This document shows positions 22,239 through 28,992 of a DNA stretch of 64,000 bases, in pieces (position 1 is the stretch's first letter; every line of letters begins with the position of its first letter). Position numbers and translations under genes: made by a program. The notes under the pieces are model-generated. The model was not told the DNA's origin. It worked only from the letters and a program-made list of their open reading frames with translations, and did not search any database. Origin of the DNA: Nocardioides perillae. Its GTDB lineage: Bacteria > Actinomycetota > Actinomycetes > Propionibacteriales > Nocardioidaceae. The stretch spans positions 1,860,001-1,924,000 of the forward strand of contig NZ_JACCAC010000001.1 of NCBI RefSeq assembly GCF_013409425.1, in the 5' to 3' direction.

Positions 22239-22265
22239 GGCGTGCACGACGTGCGAAGGACCCAC

Positions 22266-24251
22266 GTGAGCGAGACGACCGGCGCTGGTGCGCCCGACGC
22301 GGGAGCCGACGGCACCGCTGCCCCCAAGAAGCGCGGCGGACTCAGCACGATGCTGCTGGCCGACCTGAAGTCGATGGCCGCGGGCATGGGCATCGCCGGC
22401 GCCGGCGCGATGAAGAAGGCGCAGCTGGTCACCGCGATCCGCGAGGCGCAGTCCGGCCCCCCGCGCACCGAGCAGCGCGCCGAGCAGCGCCCCGGTGCGG
22501 GCGCCGAGCGGGTCGCCGAGCAGCGCCGCGACGCGGGCACCGGACAGGCGGAGGCCCGCACGGGCGCCGCCGCAGCCGCGGGTGCCCAGGACGTCGCGGG
22601 TGCCCAGGACGTCGCGGGCGAGCAGGACCGGCCGGCACGCACGGGTCGCAGCCGTCGCCGTGCCGGTGGGGCGGGTGGTGCCGAGCAGGGGGAGCCGGCG
22701 GAGCAGGCGGCGGAGGCCGGGCAGGCGCCCTCGACGGACCAACCGGCGCGCGCGGAGCAGGAGCAGCCCGGCGGGCGGCAGCGCGAGCGTCGCGACCGTG
22801 CGGCCCAGGGCACGGCCCAGGAGGGCCAGCAGCAGGGCAAGGGCCAGCAGGGCAAGGGCCAGCAGGGCCAGGAGGGCCAGGGCGGCAAGCAGGGCAAGGA
22901 CCAGCAGGGACAGCAGAACCAGCAGGGCCAGCAGGGACAGCAGGGACAGCAGAACCAGCAGAACCAGCAGGGCCAGCAGGGCCAGCAGGGCGAGCAGGAC
23001 CTCGACGACGACGGCACGAGCCGCCGCAACCGCCGTCGCCGCGGTCGCGACCGCGACCGCGACCGCCCGGTGGAGCGCGCCGGCCGCGCGCCGGGGCGCG
23101 GCGAGCCCGACACGACCGTGCTCGAGGACGACGTGCTGGTGCCGGCGGCCGGCATCCTCGACGTGCTCGACAACTACGCCTTCGTCCGCACCAGCGGCTA
23201 CCTGCCGGGTGCCGACGACGTCTACGTCTCGCTGTCGATCGTCCGCAAGTACGGCCTGCGCCGCGGCGACGCCGTGGTGGGCCAGGTGCGCCAGCCCCGC
23301 GAGGGCGAGCGTCGCGAGAAGTTCAACCCGATGGTGCGCATCGACTCGGTCAACGGCGCCGAGCCCGACTCGGCCCGCACCCGCCCCGACTTCGCCGCGC
23401 TGACCCCGCTGCACCCGACCGAGCGGCTGCGCCTGGAGACGGGCCCGGAGGACGTGGTCGGCCGCGTGGTCGACCTGCTCGCCCCGCTCGGCAAGGGTCA
23501 GCGCGCCCTGGTGGTCTCGCCGTCGAAGTCGGGCGGCACCTCCACCTTGCAGGCCGTGGCTGCGTCCGTGACCCGCAACAACCCCGAGTGCCACCTCATG
23601 GTGGTGCTCGTCGACCAGCGCCCCGAGGAGGTCACCGACTTCGAGCGGTCGGTCAAGGGCGAGGTCATCGCCTCCACCTTCGACCGACCGCCGGTCGACC
23701 ACACGACGCTCGCCGAGCTCGCGGTCGAGCGCGCCAAGCGCCTGGTGGAGCTGGGCCACGACGTCGTGCTGCTGGTCGACGGGCTCACCCGCCTCGGCCG
23801 CGCCTACAACCTCGCGGCCCCGGCGAGCGGCCGGGTGCTGCCCGGCGGCGTCGACGCGGTGGCGCTGCACCCGCCCAAGCGCTTCTTCGGTGCCGCCCGC
23901 AACGTGGAGAACGGCGGCTCGCTCACGATCGTGGCCACCGCGCTGGTCGAGAGCGGGTCGGCGATGGACGAGGTCGTCTTCGAGGAGCTCGAGGGCACGA
24001 GCAACCTCGAGCTGCGGCTGCGCCGCGACCTGGCCGACCAGCGGGCCTTCCCCGCGGTCGACGTGCTGCGTTCCGGCACGCGCCGCGAGGAGCTGCTCTC
24101 GAGCGAGCAGGAGGTGGCCCTCGTCCGCGCGCTGCGCCACTCGCTGGGCGACCTCGCGCCGCGTGAGGCGCTCGACGCGTTGCTCGGGCGGGTGCGCGGC
24201 ACCCAGAGCAACGTCGAGCTGCTCACGGCGGTGCAGCGCAGCGGGGCCTGA
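22266..24251 (+). CDS. rho: Transcription termination factor Rho with variant ATPase active site and long disordered insert
   Basis: A 661-residue Rho from a GTG with a GAAGGA ribosome site. An N-terminal SAP-like Rho-N segment (about 30-62) is followed by a charged region, then a Gln/Gly-rich tract (187-245), an RG/RD-rich patch, the RNA-binding cold-shock domain (about 290-380) and the RecA-like ATPase. The ATPase is full length and conserved in GEVIASTFDRPP, TRLGRAYN, GGVD and the arginine-finger region RSGTRREELL. However, the Walker A loop reads SPSKSGGTS where Rho normally has PPKAGKT, so Gly424 replaces the essential lysine. Gln451 replaces the catalytic Glu of DERPEE, and Gly replaces Ser in DSITR. 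Hydrolysis by this chain should be impaired. A second rho elsewhere, or an altered mechanism, are possible explanations. Confidence 0.93.
   Translation: MSETTGAGAPDAGADGTAAPKKRGGLSTMLLADLKSMAAGMGIAGAGAMKKAQLVTAIREAQSGPPRTEQRAEQRPGAGAERVAEQRRDAGTGQAEARTGAAAAAGAQDVAGAQDVAGEQDRPARTGRSRRRAGGAGGAEQGEPAEQAAEAGQAPSTDQPARAEQEQPGGRQRERRDRAAQGTAQEGQQQGKGQQGKGQQGQEGQGGKQGKDQQGQQNQQGQQGQQGQQNQQNQQGQQGQQGEQDLDDDGTSRRNRRRRGRDRDRDRPVERAGRAPGRGEPDTTVLEDDVLVPAAGILDVLDNYAFVRTSGYLPGADDVYVSLSIVRKYGLRRGDAVVGQVRQPREGERREKFNPMVRIDSVNGAEPDSARTRPDFAALTPLHPTERLRLETGPEDVVGRVVDLLAPLGKGQRALVVSPSKSGGTSTLQAVAASVTRNNPECHLMVVLVDQRPEEVTDFERSVKGEVIASTFDRPPVDHTTLAELAVERAKRLVELGHDVVLLVDGLTRLGRAYNLAAPASGRVLPGGVDAVALHPPKRFFGAARNVENGGSLTIVATALVESGSAMDEVVFEELEGTSNLELRLRRDLADQRAFPAVDVLRSGTRREELLSSEQEVALVRALRHSLGDLAPREALDALLGRVRGTQSNVELLTAVQRSGA
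22824..22997 (+). repeat. Imperfect CAGCAGGGC-type repeats coding a Gln/Gly tract in Rho
   Basis: Around 19 degenerate 9-bp units (mostly CAG CAG GGC with AAG or AAC variants) encode repeated QQG, QQN and GK steps. The tract is in frame throughout and lies between the N-terminal domain and the RNA-binding domain. Confidence 0.85.
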
Positions 24252-24387: not shown

Positions 24388-24759
24388 GTGGCGCGCATCC
24401 TCGTCGCTGACGACGACGTCGACATCCGGGAGCTGGTGGAGTTCAAGCTCTCCACCCTCGGGCACGACATCGTCGCGGTCGGCGACGGCGCGGCGGCGGT
24501 GGACGCCTGCCAGGCCGAGCGCCCCGACCTCGCGATCCTCGACATCATGATGCCGGGCATGTCCGGCCTCGACGCGATGCGCGCGATCCGCGACGACGAG
24601 GCGCTCAAGGACATCCCGGTCATCCTGCTCACCGCGCGCGCCCAGGAGGCCGACGTGGAGACCGGCTTCAGCTCCGGCGCTGACGACTACATCACCAAGC
24701 CCTTCAGTCCGCGCGAGCTCGCCTCCCGGGTGCAGGCCCTCCTCGCCCGCGCCCGCTGA
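24388..24759 (+). CDS. Single-domain response regulator (CheY-like)
   Basis: A 123-residue receiver domain with no output domain. The acidic pocket is Asp8-Asp9, the phosphoacceptor is Asp52 in LAILDIMMPGMSG, and Thr82 and Lys104 (ADDYITKPFSP) complete the switch. An AGGGAG ribosome site precedes the GTG. It is the first gene of a four-gene string with a HEAT-repeat protein, a glycosyltransferase and a histidine kinase. It is likely to be phosphorylated by that kinase and to act by protein contact rather than on DNA. Confidence 0.92.
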   Translation: MARILVADDDVDIRELVEFKLSTLGHDIVAVGDGAAAVDACQAERPDLAILDIMMPGMSGLDAMRAIRDDEALKDIPVILLTARAQEADVETGFSSGADDYITKPFSPRELASRVQALLARAR

Positions 24760-24768
24760 TCCTGCGCC

Positions 24769-25905
24769 GTGGACCTCGGCTTCTTCGCCCTCGTCGCGGG
24801 GGTGCTGCTGGCGCTCCTGTGCGTGGGGCTGGTGCTCGCGCTCGTGGCGGTGCGGCTCGGCACCGGCCGTGCCGAGCGTCGCCGCGCCGAGCTGCGCACC
24901 CCGGTCTGGCGGCTCGTGCTCACCATGACGACGGGTGAGGACGACGAGGTCGACGAGGCACTGGCCGGGCTCGAGCGCGCCTCGCGCTCCGAGGTCGCCG
25001 TGGTCGAGGCCGACGCGTTCGGGCTGCTCCCCAAGCTCCGCGGCGCCTCGCAGGAGCGGCTGCGCCAGCTGCTGCGCCACTGGGGGAGCGCTGCCCGGGC
25101 CGAGGCGCTCGTCGGCTCGTGGTCGGCGGTCCGCCGGTGCCGCGGCCTCTACCGCCTCGGCATGCTCGCCGACCCCGCCTCCCTGCCGCTGGTGCTCGAC
25201 CGCCTCGGCGACCGCGACTTCGCTGTGCGCCGGGTCGCGGTCCAGGCGCTCGGCTCGCTGGGCGACGCCAGCGCGGTGCGACCGGCGCTCGACCTGGTCG
25301 CCGGCGAGCCCGTGCTGCGCCGCGACCTCCTCGCCGCGCTCTCCCGCATCGGCGCCGCCTCGGCCCCGGTGCTGGAGCAGGAGCTGGTCGAGGCCCTCGC
25401 CGGCGTGGGCGGGGCGAGCGTCACCGGCGCCGGTCCGACGGCCGAGGCCGGTGCGTCCGACGAGCTGCGGCCCGAGGAGGCGCGCGCCCGCCGGCGCGCC
25501 CAGCTCTCCGCCGAGGGGCTCGGCCTGGTCGACGCCGTCGGGGCCGCCCCCGTGCTCGCACGCGCGGCGCTCGAGGTCGACGACGTGCCGCTGCAGACCG
25601 CCTGCCTCGACGCGCTCGGGCGCCTCGGCTCGCCCGCCGGCTCGACCGCGCTCGAGGCGGGGCTCGGGCACCCGGTCGCCGAGGTGCGCCGCACGGCCGC
25701 GCAGGCCCTCGGCCTGCTCGGTGGCCCCCGGGCCGTACCGGCGCTCACCCCGGTGCTCGAGGACCCCGCGGTCGAGGTGGCCCGCGCGGCCGCGCAGGCC
25801 CTGGGTCGCAGCGGCCCGGCCGGCGCCGCCGCGCTCGAGGAGTCGACCGCCCCGGTGGCCCGCGAGACGGTCGCCCTCGCCGCGCTCGGCACGGCCCTGC
25901 GGTGA
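24769..25905 (+). CDS. Membrane-anchored HEAT-repeat protein
   Basis: A 378-residue protein with one N-terminal membrane helix (about residues 5-30, LVAGVLLALLCVGLVLALVA) followed by a cytoplasmic alpha-solenoid. HEAT-like repeats are seen as spaced VRRVAVQALGSLGD, VRRTAAQALGLLGG and VARAAAQALGRSG helices. Such solenoids act as docking surfaces. Its place between the response regulator and the glycosyltransferase (four-base overlap, GTGA) suggests it conveys the phosphorylation state to the synthase, which is inference. GTG start, nine bases after the regulator's stop. Confidence 0.85.
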   Translation: MDLGFFALVAGVLLALLCVGLVLALVAVRLGTGRAERRRAELRTPVWRLVLTMTTGEDDEVDEALAGLERASRSEVAVVEADAFGLLPKLRGASQERLRQLLRHWGSAARAEALVGSWSAVRRCRGLYRLGMLADPASLPLVLDRLGDRDFAVRRVAVQALGSLGDASAVRPALDLVAGEPVLRRDLLAALSRIGAASAPVLEQELVEALAGVGGASVTGAGPTAEAGASDELRPEEARARRRAQLSAEGLGLVDAVGAAPVLARAALEVDDVPLQTACLDALGRLGSPAGSTALEAGLGHPVAEVRRTAAQALGLLGGPRAVPALTPVLEDPAVEVARAAAQALGRSGPAGAAALEESTAPVARETVALAALGTALR

Positions 25906-27368
25906 CCGGCGTGGTGGAGGGCTTCGAGGCCGTGATGGTCGCGCTCGGCATCGCCTTCGCGGTCTACTCCGTGCTCATCAACAGCAGCTTCCTGGTCCTC
26001 ACGGCCCTGGCCCTCGTCGACCTGTCGGGCTACCGTCGCCGCCTCGACTTCGCGGCGTACGACGAGTGGTTCCTCGACCCGAACTCCCGCGGCGTCTCGG
26101 TCCTGATGCCGGCCTACAACGAGGCCGCGACGATCGTGCAGTCGGTGCAGGCGATGACCGCGCTGCGCTACCCCGACTTCGAGGTCGTGGTGGTCGACGA
26201 CGGGTCGAAGGACGACACGGTCGAGATCCTGGTGCGCGAGTTCGACATGGTCGAGGTGCCGCTGGTGCCCGGCGGCTCGATCCCGACGAAGGGCGAGGTG
26301 CTCAGCACCTGGGTGAGCCGGCGCGGCGCGCACAACCTCGCGCTGGTGGTGAAGGGCAACGGCGGCAAGGCCGACGCGCTCAACGCCGGCATCAACCACT
26401 CCCGCAAGGAGCTGGTGTGCATGGTCGACGCCGACTCCCTGCTCGACCCCTCCGCCCTGCTCAACGTCGCGCGGCCCTTCGCCGACGACCCCGGCCGGGT
26501 GATCGCGGCCGGCGGCGTGGTGCGCGTGGCCAACGGCTCGCGCGTGGAGCGGGGCCGTGTGTCCAACCCCCGCATGCCGCGTCGCTGGCTGGCCCGCATC
26601 CAGGTCGTCGAGTACCTCCGCGCCTTCCTCGTGGGCCGCGCCGGCTGGTCGCGCGCCGGCGGGCTGCTCATCATCTCCGGCGCCTTCGGCGTCTTCCGCA
26701 AGGACGTGCTGCTCGAGGTCGGCGGGATGGCCACCGACTGCATCGGCGAGGACGCCGAGCTCGTCGTGCGGCTGCACCGGCGCCTCGGCGACGAGGACCT
26801 CGAGGGCGACGTCGTCTTCGTGCCCGAGCCGGTCGCGTGGACCGAGGTGCCGGAGGACCGCGGCGTGCTGCGCAAGCAGCGGCGCCGGTGGCACCGCGGG
26901 CTGGCCGAGATCTTCGTGCGCCACCGCGGCATGCTCTTCCGGCCCCGCTACGGCGTCATCGGCACCGTGACGATGCCCTGGTTCTTCTTCTTCGAGCTCC
27001 TGGCGCCGGTCGTCGAGGTGCTCGGCCTGGTCTACTTCGCCCTGCTGCTGGTCGCGCTGCTCCTCGACCCGTTCGTGGCCTACGAGCTGCAGACCCTGAA
27101 CGTGCCCTTCGCCTCGCTGCTGCTGACCGCCTCGATCCTCTTCGCGATCTTCGTGACGCTGGTGGCCCTCCTGGCCGAGGAGGTCTCCTTCCGCCGCTAC
27201 CGCGGCGTGCCCGACCTGCTGCGCGCCGTGCTCGCGGCGGTCGAGGAGAACTTCGGCTACCGCCAGCTCAACGCCTTCTGGCGCCTCGGCGGCATCGTCG
27301 AGGTGCTCCGCCGCTCCGCGCACGACTGGGGCGACATGCAGCGCAAGGGCTTCCAGACCGGTGACTAG
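25902..27368 (+). CDS. Membrane family 2 glycosyltransferase, likely processive polysaccharide synthase
   Basis: A 488-residue GT-A transferase. One N-terminal membrane helix precedes the catalytic domain, with Asp99-Asp100 (VVVDDGSKDD), DAD at 176-178, the general-base motif GED at 282-284 and QRRRW at 326-330. These are the D,D,D,QxxRW set of processive enzymes such as PgaC, HasA and BcsA. Two or three C-terminal membrane helices follow (about 345-440). It probably polymerises a sugar nucleotide and exports the product. The sugar cannot be deduced. It overlaps the kinase gene by eight bases. The neighbouring phosphorelay genes suggest that synthesis is signal-controlled. Confidence 0.88.
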   Translation: MTGVVEGFEAVMVALGIAFAVYSVLINSSFLVLTALALVDLSGYRRRLDFAAYDEWFLDPNSRGVSVLMPAYNEAATIVQSVQAMTALRYPDFEVVVVDDGSKDDTVEILVREFDMVEVPLVPGGSIPTKGEVLSTWVSRRGAHNLALVVKGNGGKADALNAGINHSRKELVCMVDADSLLDPSALLNVARPFADDPGRVIAAGGVVRVANGSRVERGRVSNPRMPRRWLARIQVVEYLRAFLVGRAGWSRAGGLLIISGAFGVFRKDVLLEVGGMATDCIGEDAELVVRLHRRLGDEDLEGDVVFVPEPVAWTEVPEDRGVLRKQRRRWHRGLAEIFVRHRGMLFRPRYGVIGTVTMPWFFFFELLAPVVEVLGLVYFALLLVALLLDPFVAYELQTLNVPFASLLLTASILFAIFVTLVALLAEEVSFRRYRGVPDLLRAVLAAVEENFGYRQLNAFWRLGGIVEVLRRSAHDWGDMQRKGFQTGD

Positions 27369-28992
27369 CACCCGGTCCGGACGTCGGCCCCGACCCGCGC
27401 CCGCGGGCGGGTCGACCGGCACGGTCGCGGGCCTGCTGCGGCGCGTGCAGGCGCTGGCGCTGGTCGGTGTGCTGCTGCTGGGCGTCCTCGGTCTCGCGGG
27501 CGCCGTGCTGTCGCTGCGCGCCACCTCCACGCTGACCGACGAGCTCATGCCCGTGCAGTCGGCCAACGACTCCGTCCTGCAGGCACTCACCGACGCGGAG
27601 ACGGGCGTGCGGGCCTACAGCCTGACCGGGCTCCGGACGACCTTGGGACCCTACTTCGCCGGCATCGCCGAGCTGCCCGGCCACGAGCGCGTCCTGCGCC
27701 AGTACGCGGAGGGCGACGCCGAGCTCGCCGAGCTGGTCGCGGCGCAGGAGGACGCCGCCCAGGCGTGGCTCGACGGCTACGCCGCGCCCAAGCTCGCCGG
27801 GCCGGGAGGGCCGGGGGCCTTCGACGCGGAGCTCTTCGCGACCGGGAGGGCCCGCTTCGACGCGTTGCGCACGCGGCACGCGGCGGTGAGCGAGGCCTTG
27901 ACCGACCGGGTCGTGGCGATCGAGGAGGACACCCGGCGCCGCCTGGTCGCCCTGGTCATCGGCACGGGGCTCGTCCTCGCCGCCCTCCTCGCCGGTGCCC
28001 TGGTCGGCACGCGCCGCCTCGACCGCGAGGTGGTGGTGCCGCTCGCCCGGCTCGAGGACACCGTGCACGCCCTCACCCAGGCCCGGCAGGGCGCCCGGGC
28101 GCCCGAGGCCGGACGCCGCGAGGTGCGCTCGGTCGCCGTCGCCCTCAACGAGCTCGCCGAGGCGCAGGAGCGGGCCCGCGCCGTCGAGGAGCAGGTGCGC
28201 GACGAGCTGCGCCGCCTCGACGCGGCACGCACCGACTTCGTCTCCAACGTCTCCCACGAGCTGCGCACCCCGCTCACCACCATCGCGGGCTACGTCGAGA
28301 TGGTCGCCGACGAGTTCGAGGGCGAGCTCTCGCCGCGCCACGAGCGGATGCTCGACGCCGGCCGCCGCAACGTCGAGCGGCTGCGCAGCCTCATCGACGA
28401 CATCCTCACCCTCTCGCGCGCCGAGAGCCCGAGCACCGACCTGCAGACGGTGTCGCTGCGCGACGTGGTCGCCGACTGCGTCGTCGACCTGCGCATGACG
28501 GCGAGCGGTCGCGGGGTCGACCTCGCGCTCGCCCAGGACCGTCGCGACCCGCTGCTCGTGCTCGCCGACCCCGGTCAGCTCTCCCGCGCCGTGCTCAACC
28601 TGCTGAGCAACGCGGTGAAGTTCAGCCCGGAGGGCGGCAGCGTCGAGGTGACCAGCCGCCGGGAGGGCGAGGCGCTGGTGCTGACCGTCGCCGACCACGG
28701 CATCGGCATCCCCGCGGCCGAGCTGGCGCAGCTCGGCACCCGCTTCTTCCGCGCCTCCAACGCCGTCGACCAGTCGATCCCCGGCACCGGCCTGGGGCTG
28801 CGCATCGTGCAGACGATCCTCGAGCACCACGGCGGCCGGCTCCACCTGGCGTCGGTGGTGGGGGAGGGCACGACCGCCACCGTGCGGCTGCCCGCGCAGG
28901 CGCGGGAGCAGGGGGCGGAGCTGCAGGGACCGCAGCCGCAGTCGGAGCCGGAGCCGCAGCCAGAGCCGGAGCCGCAGCCGGGAACACCGTGA
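27361..28992 (+). CDS. CHASE3-domain sensor histidine kinase
   Basis: A 543-residue membrane kinase. Membrane helix 1 (about 30-52) is followed by an extracytoplasmic CHASE3-like domain (about 55-190, with DAETGVRAYSLTG), membrane helix 2 (196-216), HAMP, HisKA with His299 in NVSHELRTPL, and HATPase with Asn417 (LLSNAVKFSP), GIGIP and GTGLGL. The C terminus has a Pro/Glu/Gln repeat tail (about 520-541) of unknown role. It is the last gene of the string and the evident partner of the single-domain regulator at 24388. CHASE3 domains are found in sensors of envelope or extracellular conditions. Confidence 0.9.
   Translation: MTSTRSGRRPRPAPAGGSTGTVAGLLRRVQALALVGVLLLGVLGLAGAVLSLRATSTLTDELMPVQSANDSVLQALTDAETGVRAYSLTGLRTTLGPYFAGIAELPGHERVLRQYAEGDAELAELVAAQEDAAQAWLDGYAAPKLAGPGGPGAFDAELFATGRARFDALRTRHAAVSEALTDRVVAIEEDTRRRLVALVIGTGLVLAALLAGALVGTRRLDREVVVPLARLEDTVHALTQARQGARAPEAGRREVRSVAVALNELAEAQERARAVEEQVRDELRRLDAARTDFVSNVSHELRTPLTTIAGYVEMVADEFEGELSPRHERMLDAGRRNVERLRSLIDDILTLSRAESPSTDLQTVSLRDVVADCVVDLRMTASGRGVDLALAQDRRDPLLVLADPGQLSRAVLNLLSNAVKFSPEGGSVEVTSRREGEALVLTVADHGIGIPAAELAQLGTRFFRASNAVDQSIPGTGLGLRIVQTILEHHGGRLHLASVVGEGTTATVRLPAQAREQGAELQGPQPQSEPEPQPEPEPQPGTP

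Follow-up and report, generated by a model that had tools for sequence, protein, structure and literature searches.

The window, i.e. the whole stretch of 64,000 nucleotides of Nocardioides perillae DNA that was analyzed, contains a rho gene whose upstream neighbor is thrB, which bears out its earlier description as lying at the canonical rho locus. From the likely GTG start the gene encodes a protein of 661 aa; the first GTG of the ORF, at 22242, would give 669 aa, with a single open frame either way. The protein matches the NCBIfam Rho model TIGR00767 with 557.7 bits, above the curated cut-off of 509.45, and its Pfam domains occur in the order of the Rho family, i.e. Rho_N, OB RNA-binding, and RecA-like. 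Its features are listed below, with E. coli residue numbers taken from an alignment to 1pv4.

22266..24251, plus strand: rho gene, 661 aa from the likely GTG start (SD-like gaagga at 22255-22260, stop codon at 24249-24251)
22341..22454, plus strand: Rho_N N-terminal helical domain, PF07498 (Pfam match)
22455..23126, plus strand: Gln/Gly/Arg-rich low-complexity linker, seen in the sequence (aligned region in M. tuberculosis Rho, 7oqh)
23148..23369, plus strand: Rho RNA-binding (OB) domain, PF07497, with the equivalents of F64, R66, Y80, E108, and R109 kept
23463..24074, plus strand: RecA-like ATPase domain, PF00006 (Pfam match)
23517..23540, plus strand: P-loop SPSKSGGT, read from the sequence
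23535..23537, plus strand: Walker A Lys K184 changed to Gly, codon GGC (GGT, not GKT)
23616..23618, plus strand: catalytic Glu E211 changed to Gln, codon CAG (DQRPEE)
23778..23780, plus strand: Walker B Asp D265, kept (175/175 in the genus)
23961..23963, plus strand: R-loop Lys K326 changed to Ala (alignment)
24081..24083, plus strand: arginine finger R366, kept (alignment)

The ATPase site of the window Rho and its copy number

The best match in the PDB is M. tuberculosis Rho (7oqh, 8.5e-168), to which the core aligns over its full length. The fold of the window Rho is predicted from this alignment, an AF2 model of the core (20 rows) being too poor for this purpose (pLDDT 61.7). The first-pass annotation had described a Rho with a dismantled ATPase site, in which Gly424 replaces the Walker A Lys and Gln451 the catalytic Glu. 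Both substitutions are real: the GGC codon lies at 23535-23537 and the CAG codon at 23616-23618 is the equivalent of E. coli E211, with both residue numbers fitting a start at 22266. The same annotation held the rest of the domain to be conserved, which is correct for the Arg finger and most of the Q-loop, but missed the change of K326 to Ala. Three further changes that it listed are present (A182 to Ser, P180 to Ser, and S266 to Gly), but two of them are ordinary in Nocardioides: among 175 aligned Rho of the genus, P180 is Ala or Ser in 97 and S266 is Gly in 117, including many with an intact motor, and these two changes are therefore not part of what is odd in the window Rho. Ser at A182 is found in 26/175.

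The window Rho retains K181, G183, T185, D210, R212, D265, K283 (as Arg), D290, R347, R353, F355, and R366. Two translocase features, the Arg finger R366 and the Arg valve R212, are thus present, and three are missing, namely the Walker A Lys, the catalytic Glu, and a basic R-loop residue. The protein is a Rho by descent and by curated score, yet it fails in the residues of an ATP-driven translocase, and we therefore class it as a recurrent, selected, putative pseudo-ATPase form of Rho in Nocardioidaceae.

Downstream of rho, four genes (24388-28992) encoding a lone receiver-domain response regulator, a HEAT-repeat protein, a family 2 glycosyltransferase, and a CHASE3 histidine kinase separate it from an L31 leader (RF03158, 29030-29079). 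Among the 20-kb regions of 60 relatives, only four contain relatives of the HEAT-repeat and glycosyltransferase genes. In four predicted proteins (P0041, P0044, P0187, and P0221) a Rho domain is annotated together with one of ribosomal protein L31, perhaps through read-through into a neighboring gene.

The first-pass annotation had considered that this Rho might work in mixed hexamers with a second, active Rho, and had proposed searching the genome for one. At the TIGR00767 cut-off no second rho was found in the window genome (3,613,620 bases, one contig), in which the two further weak matches, with 63 and 32.5 bits, are a FliI-like ATPase and the atpD of the window. Likewise, each of 210/215 genus genomes has a single rho match at E<=1e-60. 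Up to seven first-look candidates were scored per genome, and all candidates in the window genome and 94 others. With one rho found in a complete single-contig genome, and a single match per rho-bearing genus genome (210 in all), mixed hexamers are hardly conceivable.

Genus rho scores run from 639 to 399 bits, with one fragment at 233; the cut-off is passed by 161/215 genomes, and some of the more eroded relatives fall below it. Only fragments were found in G191, G193, G198, and G211. Two genomes have no match (the G127 assembly breaks inside thrB, and G202 is 77% complete), and none of the 215 demonstrably lacks rho. A genome of the same order (G052) encodes a second Rho (540 bits) with the catalytic motif GERPEE alongside a canonical one; G370 has two identical-scoring rho matches 118 kb apart on one contig, reflecting duplication or an assembly artifact; and in G411, which belongs to another family and is assembled as one contig, a frameshift or a sequencing error divides rho between two ORFs that overlap.

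Spread and recurrence of motor-residue loss

Rho cores were aligned from 175 of the 215 genus genomes; left out were 30 genomes at 611-630 bits, four scoring lower (G148, G176, G194, and G215), four that were too short, and the two without a match. K184 is kept in 108/175 and replaced in 67 (27 Ala, 25 Arg, 11 Thr, two Val, one Gly, and one Ile), and E211 is retained in 131, with substitutions in the other 44 (21 Ala, 21 Thr, one Gln, and one Val). Both residues are lost in 43 genomes and at least one in 68. In contrast, R212, P213, E214, E215, and D265 are invariant (175/175), R366 is found in 172 of the 173 sequences read at this position, and T185 and G183 are each present in 174/175. The window Rho, presented at first as a single odd protein, has the substitutions ascribed to it but belongs to a recurrent, graded loss that runs through its family.

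Outside the genus, both K184 and E211 are present in all 22 outgroup rows of the same order and in 53/53 named loci (46 from other families and seven without an assigned family), which were chosen by similarity and are our sole sample beyond this order. In two sister genera, 7 of the 13 rho that were read lack K184 (replaced by Arg or Asn), although these 13 were picked for low score from 58 genomes of the same family; all 13 keep E211, and among the seven the Arg finger is changed to Asn in three and to His in one. The low-scoring rho of other families that were read retain GKT and DERPEE and are either fragmentary or split between ORFs. One motor-less Rho was also compared with a database of 5.8 billion proteins: of its 120 best relatives, 104 lack E211, and K184 is absent from 101 of the 117 P-loops that could be cleanly read. 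These relatives, which include proteins from N. alpinus, N. hwasunensis, N. zhouii, N. eburneiflavus, N. lacusdianchii, N. astragali, and N. seonyuensis, are labeled transcription termination factor Rho in the database; the P-loops of N. alpinus and N. hwasunensis read PPRTGAT.

A sequencing or assembly error could be suspected because Gly184 and Gln211 each occur in the window genome alone among the 175, and because no relative more than 78% identical to the window Rho is found among the matches listed. However, a change from Lys to Gly takes at least two base changes, and the same two sites are altered across many genomes and sources (K184 or E211 is missing in 68/175 genus genomes vs 0/53 named loci), so that error, already judged unlikely at first reading, is not a fair account and deserves almost no credence.

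To place these losses, a species tree of 61 genomes was built by a quick search from the prfA, atpA, atpG, and atpD proteins (named by NCBIfam; 1681 columns). Intact and eroded species are intermingled at starred forks of this tree. The minimum number of changes is 13 for K184, 3 for E211, 15 for K181, 12 for R353, and 14 for K326, counts that do not separate loss from regain or transfer of an intact rho. There are 11 independent pairs differing at K184 on starred branches, and the tree of rho itself, computed with the catalytic columns removed, requires at least 10 K184 changes. The minimum of 13 K184 changes on the four-gene tree indicates that the loss is recurrent, and among related genera, whose alignment was one of the checks suggested at the outset, it extends to the seven low-scoring sister-genus rho mentioned above.

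The losses are also nested. Across seven positions in 172 genomes, 43 of the 44 that lack E211 also lack K184, and 65 of the 66 that lack K184 also lack K326; F355 is missing in 44 of these 66. All six of K181, K184, E211, K326, R353, and F355 are gone in 35/172. When only independent pairs are considered, co-loss of K184 and K326 has a median p of 0.03 (range 0.008-0.5), or 0.07 with pairs drawn on K326; among the eight couples of residues compared, K181-K326 gives p 0.06 and the six others at least 0.25.

Erosion and selection in motor-less Rho

To determine what erodes and what stays, we scored the 68 genomes that lack K184 or E211 at 162 sites whose residue is conserved between E. coli, 47 intact genomes, and the outgroup. 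The OB domain and positions 217-262 retain 0.958 and 0.951 on average, the P-loop and the R-loop 0.547 and 0.528. Among the most eroded sites are K184 (0.01), K326 (0.03), M327 (0.07), K181 (0.15), and A182 (0.18), followed by R347 (0.22), R353 (0.28), F355 (0.34), and E211 (0.35). F64, R66, D78, Y80, and E108, which we take to be the primary RNA-binding residues of Rho, are retained in 68/68, and a Rho_N-like stretch is present in 65/68.

For a permutation test we used eight motor residues (K181, T185, R212, D265, K326, R353, F355, and R366), a list drawn in part from PMC8828861; K184 and E211 were excluded because both define the set of 68 genomes. The eight residues keep 0.596 vs 0.817 over 160 sites (p 0.025), radical changes amount to 0.292 vs 0.073 (p 0.005), and outside the large motor-less clade retention is 0.682 vs 0.848 (p 0.033), in a comparison biased toward K181, R353, and K326 since the intact reference set was chosen by these residues. 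Erosion extends beyond the motor, a pattern that generally faster evolution would be expected to leave: of the 160 sites (K184 and E211 excluded), 29 are kept in fewer than half of the 68 genomes, including W381, I267, and L139. These three are among the most eroded sites and, like some others there, have no known motor role. Motor residues are thus eroded more than other conserved sites, though not exclusively, and the test is modest. In motor-less genomes D265 and R212 are invariant and R366 nearly so, which suggests some remaining importance of the pocket; in M. tuberculosis Rho, R212 corresponds to the Arg valve and R366 to the Arg finger (PMC8828861).

The cores are also shortened C-terminally by clade, to ∼355 residues in the large motor-less clade and 326 in G104/G106/G128, compared with 374 in the window. 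Stops within the match were reported for G104, G122, and G089; the G104 core ends early, and the other two are taken to run past the C-terminal stop.

Selection was assessed by dN/dS under codon models (GY+F3X4, IQ-TREE), with between-set comparison being safer than absolute values since synonymous sites are probably near saturation. The ratio is 0.029 for intact rho (46 genes), 0.016 for the large clade that lacks both K184 and E211 (32 genes), and 0.057 for the other, scattered K184-less rho (35 genes), a set-wide figure that includes the window rho. For 49 rho in which K184 and E211 are present but K181 or R353 is missing, it is 0.045. The corresponding values are 0.053 (intact set) and 0.043 (K184-less set) for atpA, and 0.044 and 0.035 for atpD. 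The motor-less relatives of the window rho are under purifying selection. The early view that the intact frame speaks against decay is upheld by the open frame and by the clade dN/dS that had been put forward as a check, i.e. 0.016 and 0.057 for the K184-less sets vs 0.029 for the intact one.

These values bear on the idea that Rho is dispensable in Nocardioidaceae and that the gene is drifting to loss under relaxed selection. The scattered K184-less lineages do evolve at about twice the intact dN/dS (0.057 vs 0.029), the losses are repeated and graded, erosion reaches many non-motor sites, and C-terminal truncations exist. However, 0.057 is near the 0.043-0.053 of atpA, the large motor-less clade stands at 0.016, frames are open, no genus genome demonstrably lacks rho, and the primary RNA-binding residues are retained, which makes relaxed selection quite improbable. 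Decay, sequencing error, and mixed hexamers are all unlikely accounts of the window Rho. We consider it probable that it is a selected pseudo-ATPase, the option that had been named first at the outset and that the open frame, dN/dS, and residue losses support.

The partner protein NusG was also surveyed. The region of Rho that faces NusG is conserved, and NusG itself scores above cut-off in 31/31 genomes tested. Its I164-F165-G166 loop, which makes key contacts with Rho (PMC7593976), reads IFG in 29 of 30 sequences, including all 16 from genomes with an eroded Rho (14 are K184-less, whereas G001 and G023 keep K184). In the outgroup genome G045, which has an intact Rho, the loop is ILGR, not IFGR.

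According to PMC13323073, coding-strand purine bias fades in Bacilli where rho was lost, so the bias should relax if Rho ceased terminating. In four genes the bias is 0.375 for 18 K184-less genomes vs 0.404 for 16 others (p=0.014, uncorrected). Over all genes called in the 20-kb regions p is 0.07 uncorrected, and after phylogenetic correction it is 0.53 for K184 and 0.13 for the number of residues lost.

Possible action of a motor-free Rho and comparison with known systems

Laboratory mutants provide a guide to what such a protein might do. As described in PMC4499133, E. coli Rho E211A and M. tuberculosis Rho E386A keep oligomer formation and ATP binding and lose ATP hydrolysis; E386A also keeps RNA binding, and loses helicase activity and efficient transcript release. 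The same source notes that M. tuberculosis Rho is active though it has Thr at the K326 position. Because E211A and E386A lose ATP hydrolysis, the window Rho is predicted not to be a motor; its ATPase would be lost by analogy with these mutants, whereas conservation suggests that it may assemble into hexamers and bind NusG. A residual or weak ATPase may persist since K181, T185, R212, D265, R353, F355, and R366 are kept.

What motor-less Rho retain is the RNA-binding face, the RPEE stretch, the NusG-facing region, and NusG itself. A motor-free ring might bind RNA, join RNA polymerase via contacts of the NusA/NusG type, inactivate the polymerase, and stop there, so that it would act as a stoichiometric clamp on nascent RNA or on the elongation complex. 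In E. coli, Rho can join RNA polymerase via NusA and NusG and inactivate it while the ring is still open (PMC11829017, PMC7819879). On balance, we lean toward the reading in which the window protein, the sole Rho found, forms a ring predicted not to hydrolyze ATP, which likely binds RNA and NusG and holds or stalls RNA polymerase without translocating. That its mode of action is specifically an elongation-complex clamp, as the E. coli case might suggest, is plausible but somewhat doubtful; the inefficient transcript release by the laboratory E386A mutant may count against it, and so may the purine-bias values given above. A bolder version, which we hold only tentatively and deem rather unlikely, is that Nocardioidaceae have repeatedly made Rho into a motor-free RNA polymerase trap, binding alone being enough to terminate or silence, with another helicase or a nuclease clearing the transcript.

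Two other readings leave ATP a part to play. ATP might serve as a switch, with the ring closing on RNA when ATP is bound and opening by exchange, without a hydrolysis cycle. This would agree with the conservation of T185 and G183 (174/175 each), D265 and R212 (175/175 each), and R366 (172/173), and with the finding that changing the catalytic Glu to Ala leaves ATP binding and oligomerization in E. coli Rho (PMC4499133), but K184 is gone, and F355, whose M. tuberculosis equivalent F530 stacks on adenine (PMC8828861), is lost in 44/66 K184-less genomes. The large clade is expected to bind ATP poorly; the window Rho keeps F355. We regard the switch as unlikely yet worth bearing in mind. Alternatively, the window Rho could be a slow but working motor that hydrolyzes nucleotide via compensating residues, e.g. 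K181 in place of K184, as would fit with its K181, R353, F355, and R366 and with 25 of the 67 K184 losses being changes to Arg. Such compensation is hard to reconcile with the 35/172 genomes that lost all six of K181, K184, E211, K326, R353, and F355, or with the strong purifying selection on a clade of 32 that lacks K184 and E211, and appears improbable.

Whether Rho must translocate to end transcription is a long-argued question. Structural work points to an inactivation of RNA polymerase that precedes helicase action (PMC7819879), and the closest precedent is M. tuberculosis Rho, for which motor-free termination was proposed and later contested (PMC4499133). In a literature search that left most subscription papers outside, no paper pairing Nocardioides with termination factor Rho was found, and none among the matches listed describes a natural Rho without catalytic residues. 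A family in which the catalytic residues of the sole Rho found have disappeared repeatedly, in nested order and with selection acting on the gene, offers a natural experiment, for which sister species with an intact Rho can serve as controls. Bicyclomycin is predicted to have no effect on motor-less species. Annotation based on sequence names such proteins transcription termination factor Rho regardless of their active site.

Pseudo-ATPases and other pseudoenzymes keep the fold, have lost catalytic residues, and are still selected, often beside an active paralogue; none was found beside the window Rho. With canonical Rho (E. coli 1pv4 and M. tuberculosis 7oqh) the window Rho shares Rho_N, the OB RNA-binding site, a predicted RecA fold, the Walker B Asp, the Arg valve R212, the Arg finger R366, and a basic Q-loop residue, and with M. 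tuberculosis Rho also a low-complexity insertion. Unlike canonical Rho, it is without the Walker A Lys, the catalytic Glu, and the R-loop Lys, and many of its relatives are also without K181, R353, and F355. It resembles the E211A and E386A mutants (PMC4499133) in the loss of the catalytic Glu, but whereas these are inactive laboratory mutants, here the change is fixed, in the sole copy found, and in many species under purifying selection. Finally, it resembles the translocation-independent inactivation of RNA polymerase in E. coli (PMC7819879) in the proposed binding of polymerase, NusA, and NusG and in an open-ring trap; helicase action is believed to follow in E. coli, whereas in the window Rho that step looks absent.
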